IMG/VR virus record: IMGVR_UViG_3300034418_000893
Span: 1-22,712 of that record
Direction: 5' to 3' (one strand)
DNA length: 22,712 nt
Origin: a virus
The position numbers and the translations under genes are program-made. This document shows positions 20,636 through 22,305 of this stretch, one piece after another. Position 1 is the stretch's first letter. Each line of letters starts with the position of its first letter. Under the pieces are notes generated by a model, which made no database searches, had not been told where the DNA came from, and saw nothing but the letters and a program-made list of their open reading frames with translations.

Positions 20636-20849
20636 GTATAATCAACACAGTGTGACAATATGGAGCTAATCCAGCTCTCGCTAAAGTGCAGCCAAGGTCT
20701 GCACCCTAAAGGGCTTCGATCTGGGCTAAAGAGAATAAAAGAATAAAAATAAAGAATTAAGAATAAGAATATAATAACAATAATAGAAAGGATAAATAAT
20801 GATAATAATAAATATGATAATGTTAATATATATAATTATTAAAATAAGA
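20636..20849. other. Divergent intergenic region, part 1: hairpins and A+T tract
   Basis: No gene. Near the terminase side are three adjacent hairpins: GAGCT/AGCTC (20663-20677), GTGCAG/CTGCAC (20686-20704) and CCC/GGG (20704-20713). They are followed by about 120 bases (20728-20849) almost free of G+C, with repeated GAATAA-like units. The layout resembles a replication origin (unwinding tract next to structured sites) or a packaging site beside TerS. Function is inferred. Confidence 0.5.
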
Positions 20850-21001
20850 TGGATCGCTGAAACGGTCAAATGCCATACAAGTAAAACCAAGTAAAGATGC
20901 GAATAGTTCGCGGATCCACGATAGCTTCGCTATCTCACTCCACAAACGATTCGATCTTGACTAAGTTTTCCTAGTATAGCAGAGAACAGGCATAAGCCTG
21001 T
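20850..21001 (+). other. Divergent intergenic region, part 2: structured leader of the rightward operon
   Basis: A stretch with normal G+C and many inverted repeats: long-range TGGATC (20850-20855) with GATCCA (20913-20918), and hairpins GCGAA/TTCGC (20899-20911), GATAGC/GCTATC with a 3-base loop (20920-20934) and ACAGGC/GCCTGT (20986-21001). The last ends 42 bases before the likely start of the first early gene. If transcribed it would be a highly folded leader or a small RNA. No good plus-strand promoter was found. Confidence 0.5.
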
Positions 21002-21043
21002 ATGGACGAGCCATACAAACTTAATATTATGAAAGGTACTAAA

Positions 21044-21661
21044 ATGAATAAATTAAATGATAAATTAATAAATGACTTAATTGACACTTACTACAAAGCA
21101 TTAGAGCTTATGTATGATAATCATGTAAATACTGAATTATTAGATATTGACGCGGAAGGCAACAATGTCAATAATAGTTTACAATCATTTACTTATCAAA
21201 TGAACGGCATTATTCCTAGTTTATATAATCAAGTTTCATACGCTGACAAAATGCTTAATTATGCAGAAAATGGTTTAAAATGGGAAAAAGACAAACAAGG
21301 AGCTAGTTCAAGAATTGCTAGCCTTGATATGTATGCTAGATCACAAGAAATCAGTTCTGTTAAATTATCCCAATTAGAGCAACAATATAACGCTAGAGAA
21401 CATAACTTCAATCATGCATACGCTAGAATGATTGCATATACTAAATACTTCAAGGAAGTAACAGGTGACGAATATGTTCCTTTCACAAGTAAAGGAGCTA
21501 AACCAGTTAGCGAAGAAACAAAAAAGAAAGTTAAAGTTCTTGAAGGTAAAGAAAAAAAGAAACTTGCAGCTTTCTATAATAAAAACATAAATAAAATTGC
21601 TAAAGTTTTAGACAATGAAGATGGTACAATATCTCCTGAATTAATCCCAGCTCAAATATAG
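21044..21661 (+). CDS. Unrecognised early protein, helical
   Basis: A 205-residue protein, MNKLNDKLINDLIDTYYKAL onward. I do not recognise it. It is mostly helical: a coiled-coil-like part at about 85-125 (RIASLDMYARSQEISSVKLS), a Lys-rich segment near 160-175 (ETKKKVKVLEGKEKKK) and an acidic/Pro end. The start at 21044 is preferred because AAAGG lies seven bases upstream; an in-frame ATG at 21002 falls right behind a hairpin and has no ribosome site. First gene of the rightward operon and followed by a terminator, so probably expressed alone and early. Function unknown; a host-takeover protein is a guess from position. Confidence 0.75.
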   Translation: MNKLNDKLINDLIDTYYKALELMYDNHVNTELLDIDAEGNNVNNSLQSFTYQMNGIIPSLYNQVSYADKMLNYAENGLKWEKDKQGASSRIASLDMYARSQEISSVKLSQLEQQYNAREHNFNHAYARMIAYTKYFKEVTGDEYVPFTSKGAKPVSEETKKKVKVLEGKEKKKLAAFYNKNINKIAKVLDNEDGTISPELIPAQI

Positions 21662-21693
21662 TTGGGATTATATCTAAAAAGCGAAAAAAAATT

Positions 21694-21712
21694 CGCGAGC
21701 CTACGGCTCGCG
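21694..21712 (+). terminator. Intrinsic terminator after the first early gene
   Basis: An 8-bp perfect stem (CGCGAGCC / GGCTCGCG) with a 3-base loop, followed by TTTCTATT and preceded by an A-run. The U-tract is short and interrupted, so termination may be partial, allowing read-through into the next genes. Confidence 0.7.
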
Positions 21713-21718
21713 TTTCTA

Positions 21719-21788
21719 TTGGTTAAGAATAACATACAAAAGCCACAATTCGGTGGTAATGCCAGGTGCATTGGACAGACTTAACCGA
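21719..21788 (+). ncRNA. Structured RNA leader, predicted three-way junction
   Basis: Between the terminator and the 165-residue gene. A 9-bp closing helix pairs TTGGTTAAG (21719-21727) with CTTAACCGA (21780-21788), including one U-G pair. Inside are a hairpin GCCAC/GTGGT (21742-21746 with 21753-21757, loop AATTCG) and a second hairpin TGCCA/TGGACA (21760-21764 with 21772-21777, one bulged A, loop of seven). The joining strands are 14, 2 and 2 bases. The ribosome site GGAGA follows eight bases later and is not paired in this fold. It matches no class I can name; a riboswitch, a regulatory leader or an RNA-protection element are all possible. Confidence 0.5.
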
Positions 21789-21807
21789 AAACAACGGAGA
21801 ATAATAT

Positions 21808-22305
21808 ATGATAACTAAAGCATTTAAATCAGGTATATGGGTAGGTAGCTCATTACTAAACAGTAAACTATACAAAGCTGCTAAGCGTAAAGGTGTATGG
21901 TATTACCGATTATTTATATCAGAAGATTTTGCTAAAACTATGAGCGATATCTATGATATGAATGTTCTTGAAAGAAAACTAAAAGGTCTATCGAGATTAA
22001 AGAAAAGAGTATTTAATGTAGATGATAATGGCAATATATGGGATCCAGCTACTGGTGAAATATTTGGCAATGTAAATACATTAAAAGAAACACCAGCTAC
22101 TCCTAAGACAGAGCCGAAAGCTGACTTTGACTTTGAACATACAGCTTCAGAACTCATAAGAAAACATTATGGAGAAGAAGATGTAAACGCTATTGCTGGT
22201 GCTGTTAATCAAGAACTCATGGATAAACATAATTATGTAACTTCTATAGAAGAAGATGAACAAATTATTGACATGATTAATGAATATACAGCAAATCAAA
22301 GATAA
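21808..22305 (+). CDS. Unrecognised early protein
   Basis: A 165-residue protein starting MITKAFKSGIWVGSSLLNSK, with GGAGA seven bases before ATG. The N-terminal 75 residues are basic and mixed (KRKGVWYYRLFISEDFAKTM then LERKLKGLSRLKKRVF). DDNGNIWDPATGEIFGNV at about 73-90 looks like a beta hairpin or small sheet. A Pro/Thr/Lys linker follows (about 95-110), then an acidic helical end. I do not recognise the family. It is controlled by the structured leader just upstream and joined by TAATG to the next short gene. Confidence 0.75.
   Translation: MITKAFKSGIWVGSSLLNSKLYKAAKRKGVWYYRLFISEDFAKTMSDIYDMNVLERKLKGLSRLKKRVFNVDDNGNIWDPATGEIFGNVNTLKETPATPKTEPKADFDFEHTASELIRKHYGEEDVNAIAGAVNQELMDKHNYVTSIEEDEQIIDMINEYTANQR

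Follow-up and report, generated by a model that had tools for sequence, protein, structure and literature searches.

A predicted structured leader ahead of an early gene in an uncultured pelagiphage lineage

Does the short stretch between two early genes of this phage encode a regulatory RNA and, if it does, of what kind? The window analyzed here is the entire virus record of 22,712 bases, and an earlier note had singled out positions 21719–21788 as a compact three-way-junction RNA with the shape of a small riboswitch or regulatory RNA. The riboswitch idea is reasonable because riboswitches are known in marine phages that infect streamlined hosts, such as the OM43 phage Melnitz, in which a glutamine riboswitch was predicted (PMC9004378). 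Our comparison of related loci indicates that the stretch is most likely an ordinary, fast-changing leader and not a new riboswitch. The reading that we favor, with a probability of about 0.5, is a lineage-specific structured 5′ leader that would mainly insulate or stabilize the start of the downstream gene (gene 2), with no ligand sensing.

Setting and predicted fold of the leader

The large terminase encoded in the window is 65% identical to the terminase of Pelagibacter phage EXVC031P Hodr, which suggests that the window belongs to a pelagiphage or a close relative. The structural genes are oriented leftward; from approximately position 21,000, a short series of early genes proceeds rightward. 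Gene 1 (21044–21661, plus strand; 205 aa) is the upstream neighbor of the leader, an ORF conserved in the loci of relatives; gene 2 (21808–22305, plus strand; 165 aa) follows, with its ATG at 21808. Around 40 viral contigs encode gene 2 and, in the collections searched, it was seen in the phage lineage of the window alone: among 50,697 phage records there were neither relatives of gene 2 nor DNA resembling the gene 2 end of the window. Its product has no family, no recognized domain and no relative in the PDB, the structure model is poor, and many of the first ~70 residues are basic. Gene 1 lies upstream of gene 2 in the loci checked, and the stretch between both genes varies.

The leader is preceded by an intrinsic-terminator-like hairpin of 8 bp (21694–21712, plus strand), which is followed by TTTCTATT. 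Both sides have changed in 4/8 pairs of this stem, and its covariation score was matched by none of 500 shuffles; the terminator stem is under strong pairing selection. The Shine-Dalgarno sequence of gene 2, CGGAG (21795–21799, plus strand), lies on the other side of the leader, which bears out the placement between a terminator and a ribosome site given by the earlier note.

The minimum-energy fold of 21719–21788 (−17.3 kcal/mol) reproduces exactly the shape that had been described, a 9-bp closing helix around two inner hairpins. The closing helix P1 pairs 21719–21727 with 21780–21788 (both plus strand; 9 bp including one G-U), and its 3′ strand reads CTTAACCGA. The hairpin P2 (21742–21757, plus strand; GCCAC-AATTCG-GTGGT) pairs 21742–21746 with 21753–21757 (5 bp), and the hairpin P3 (21760–21777, plus strand) has 4 bp plus 2, its outer pair being a G-A mismatch in the window. 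The joints of the fold are 14, 2, and 2 bases long. The leader has a G+C content of 41%, and the genes on its two sides have 30% and 32%, in agreement with the higher value claimed relative to neighboring coding sequence.

Taken as a single sequence, the leader fold is weakly unusual. Its energy has a z of −2.42 relative to shuffles, with as good a fold in 3/200, and in a ranking of 4,528 seventy-base segments from both strands it stands at 2.3% by energy and at 7.5% by z, with many other parts of the window ahead of it. A sequence as long as the window should contain several perfect stems like P1 (defined as 9 bp with at least three G-C pairs and a span of at most 78); 22 were counted, against 6–17 in block shuffles. 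It is the comparison with relatives, rather than the single sequence, that points to part of the leader fold being real.

Two further parts of this early region appear to have structure of their own. A 10-bp hairpin holds the gene 1 stop codon (21643–21669, plus strand); its shape is kept in L012 and L021, which were read directly, despite altered pairs. The leader of gene 1 (20850–21043) exists in two unrelated versions that are swapped among phages of the lineage, one found in the window, L012, L021, and L032 and the other in L005, L014, L018, and others; both appear hairpin-rich. On the minus strand, 20664–20731 gave a sub-threshold match to the Flavo-1 RNA (E = 0.019; a score of 24 bits where the cut-off is 42), and this match adjoins the divergent intergenic region.

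Leaders of related phages and support for the helices

The leaders at this site fall into several types: (i) the type of the window, which has all three helices P1–P3; (ii) a shorter type that forms a rod tipped by P2 (L014–L016, L020, L022, and L028–L030); (iii) a type with other hairpins (L026 and L027); (iv) a type in which a 55-codon frame comes first, then P2, then a 3′ part that varies (L008, L012, L021, and L032); and (v) a longer RNA-like insert that lacks P2 (L017–L019, L023–L025, L046, and L047). The 55-codon frame lies between the terminator and gene 2 (L032:4775–4942; also L008, L012, and L021). P1, P2, and P3 occur together in the closest subgroup only. In L008, with a gene 2 that is 99% identical to that of the window, P2 and P3 are kept, the sequence 5′ of P2 differs, and P1 is unable to form. 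The compact three-way junction of the earlier note thus holds for the nearest subgroup of leaders and fails beyond it, L008 being without P1 and L014 and L020 having a rod instead. The sequence that the insert of the sister phages shares with the leader of the window is limited to the 3′ end. Judged from these sequences, the interval between gene 1 and gene 2 looks like a spot of leader-module exchange.

Each of the ten distinct short leaders outperforms its dinucleotide shuffles, the fraction of shuffles that fold as well being 0.000–0.046, and RNAalifold over the aligned short leaders returned P2 as the sole common helix. This conserved core is found in most relatives: in seven distinct versions 100% of its cells are paired, with compensatory changes at one pair (C-G/U-A) and at another (G-U/A-U/G-C). 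The inner helix of the rod subgroup has a G-C to A-U exchange. P3 is confined to the nearest subgroup and L008, and one of its pairs is changed on both sides within the window subgroup. P1 in that subgroup of four sequences is invariant except for the outermost pair, which is lost in 2/4, and no compensatory change was found in it. Of the three helices in which compensatory changes would, by the earlier note, support the fold, P2 has them, P3 has a single double change, and P1 has none. The covariation set comprises 4 to 10 distinct leaders, so that the counts are small and partly reflect ancestry.

P1 as the closing helix of all relatives was considered and rejected, as strong 9-bp pairing is confined to the nearest subgroup. 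Relatives without its 5′ strand nevertheless keep the 3′ strand, the conservation of which is therefore no proof of P1. Pairing of the post-terminator with the pre-ribosome-site segment was compared within and between phages, and in most cases a phage's own combination does no better than a swapped one. The terminator (21694–21712) lies in the same intergenic region as the leader fold and is a hairpin too, but it covaries strongly, whereas P1 does not covary. P2 itself is missing altogether in some sister phages (L017–L019 and L023–L025), and the leader therefore has no indispensable part. Of the properties expected of a structured 5′ mRNA leader, the short leaders have better-than-shuffle folding and, in a few sequences, compensatory changes in P2, the rod inner helix, and one P3 pair, but not in P1.

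Alternative readings of the leader

Hairpins at the 5′ ends of phage and bacterial mRNAs can make messages more stable or leave the ribosome site accessible. The leader of gene 2 resembles such structured leaders in having a short hairpin 5′ of an open Shine-Dalgarno sequence together with variable extra helices, and differs from them in being swapped between close relatives. We infer that the leader would be transcribed as RNA and would affect stability or translation. Transcription would reach it by read-through of the gene 1 terminator or from a putative promoter just after; no clear promoter was found 3′ of the terminator. P2 and the lineage-specific helices (P1 and P3 in the window) would then fold downstream of the terminator and ahead of the ribosome site, and the fold may insulate the ribosome site from upstream RNA, constitutively, and may stabilize the start of the gene 2 message.

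The predicted accessibility of the ribosome site is consistent with such a role. In the fold of the window with P1 formed, the Shine-Dalgarno sequence is unpaired at 37°C with a probability of 0.96, or 0.77 with slightly different ends, and with 0.87–0.90 if the fold omits the 5′ strand of P1; being mostly unpaired with or without P1, it gives the predicted fold no clear off state. A constitutive leader fits best. At 15°C, in a longer fold, the site is less open (0.47–0.60), with no clear dependence on P1, and in another subgroup it is half-paired by a separate 3-bp stem; a ribosome site masked consistently across the leaders was not found.

The shape of a three-way junction and its position before the ribosome site, together with the capacity of phages of streamlined marine bacteria to carry riboswitches (Melnitz; PMC9004378), are what speak for a small metabolite riboswitch built on the junction. 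Both the predicted glutamine riboswitch of Melnitz (PMC9004378) and the leader are compact RNAs that adjoin a terminator in phages with streamlined marine hosts; the leader, however, matches neither the glnA RNA nor any other Rfam riboswitch family and has no conserved binding core. No Rfam riboswitch family was detected in the leader by cmscan, either at gathering scores or at E up to 5, in keeping with the earlier observation that no known class signature could be recognized. At the gathering score, neither the window nor 12 related loci matched any known RNA family; under relaxed settings all matches stayed below threshold and were biologically odd, and no tRNA or tmRNA was found. An aptamer core conserved in both sequence and structure was not found either: the P2 stem alone is shared, the junction bases and P1 are not kept, and many relatives have no junction. 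In the loci checked, no further copies of the element were found in the same genomes or before other genes; there is one per genome, always before gene 2, and the terminator is upstream, not downstream, of the fold. With no family match, no conserved core, a junction that is often absent, a single copy before the same gene, and a ribosome site that is not consistently masked, a riboswitch is very unlikely, and the riboswitch reading is left unsupported. A translated leader peptide is just as improbable. In the window, an open frame of 19 codons begins with an ATG at ~21760, runs into the start of gene 2, and could couple translation, and similar frames occur in L014 and L020, but L001 (gene 2 99% identical) has ATT for ATG and an in-frame stop within that stretch, and L021 has no ATG there; with start codon and frame lost in L001, this candidate was rejected.

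Two other readings deserve more weight. The site could be mostly drift, with P2 a minor inherited hairpin and P1 and P3 chance pairings in an often-recombining spot. The frequency of P1-like stems by chance, the modest rank of the fold within the window, the lack of compensatory change in P1, and the repeated replacement of the site by unrelated sequence all agree with this, but a P2 pairing kept through paired changes and 10/10 distinct short leaders that beat their shuffles speak against drift, and we regard it as possible if rather unlikely. A protein-binding operator, at which a protein (the gene 2 product, or another of phage or host origin) would bind the hairpin and repress or protect the message, is a doubtful proposition. 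The occurrence of the element once in each genome and always before gene 2, as seen in the loci checked, and the abundance of basic residues in the first ~70 of its product would suit an operator; against it, gene 2 has no recognized domain and a poor model, and an RNA site matched to the gene 2 protein is not conserved, because sister phages keep the gene with unrelated leaders. The constitutive structured leader remains our preferred reading.

RNA of sister phages and exchange of early-gene leaders

In the same intergenic place, sister phages have a conserved multi-helix RNA of ~185 nt with a predicted pseudoknot (L018:4728–4910; also L017, L019, L023, L024, L025, L046, and L047). Across five distinct sequences, 43 pairs are kept at 99.5%, and three of these pairs are changed on both sides; the pseudoknot helix is invariant, and hence has no covariation support. 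The RNA had no Rfam match at gathering score, and a sub-threshold similarity to RAGATH-7 (E = 0.09) appeared in L017 and not in L046. Among viral contigs, a 20-base piece of it occurs in this lineage only. The pseudoknotted RNA is a more interesting and better-supported lead than the leader of the window.

A broader and more speculative proposal, which we consider rather unlikely as it stands, is that the interval from the terminator to the ribosome site of gene 2 is an RNA cassette slot, in which interchangeable structured RNAs (the three-way junction, the rod, and the ~185-nt pseudoknotted RNA) would control the early operon or be expressed with it, and that the pseudoknotted form would constitute a class of RNA not yet described.

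For the leader of the window, the comparison corrects a possible over-reading: the junction shape would be a lineage-specific elaboration of one hairpin, with no conserved aptamer. Early-gene leaders in this uncultured pelagiphage lineage appear to be structured and swapped as modules, and the analysis of one of them points to a better-supported RNA in the sister phages.
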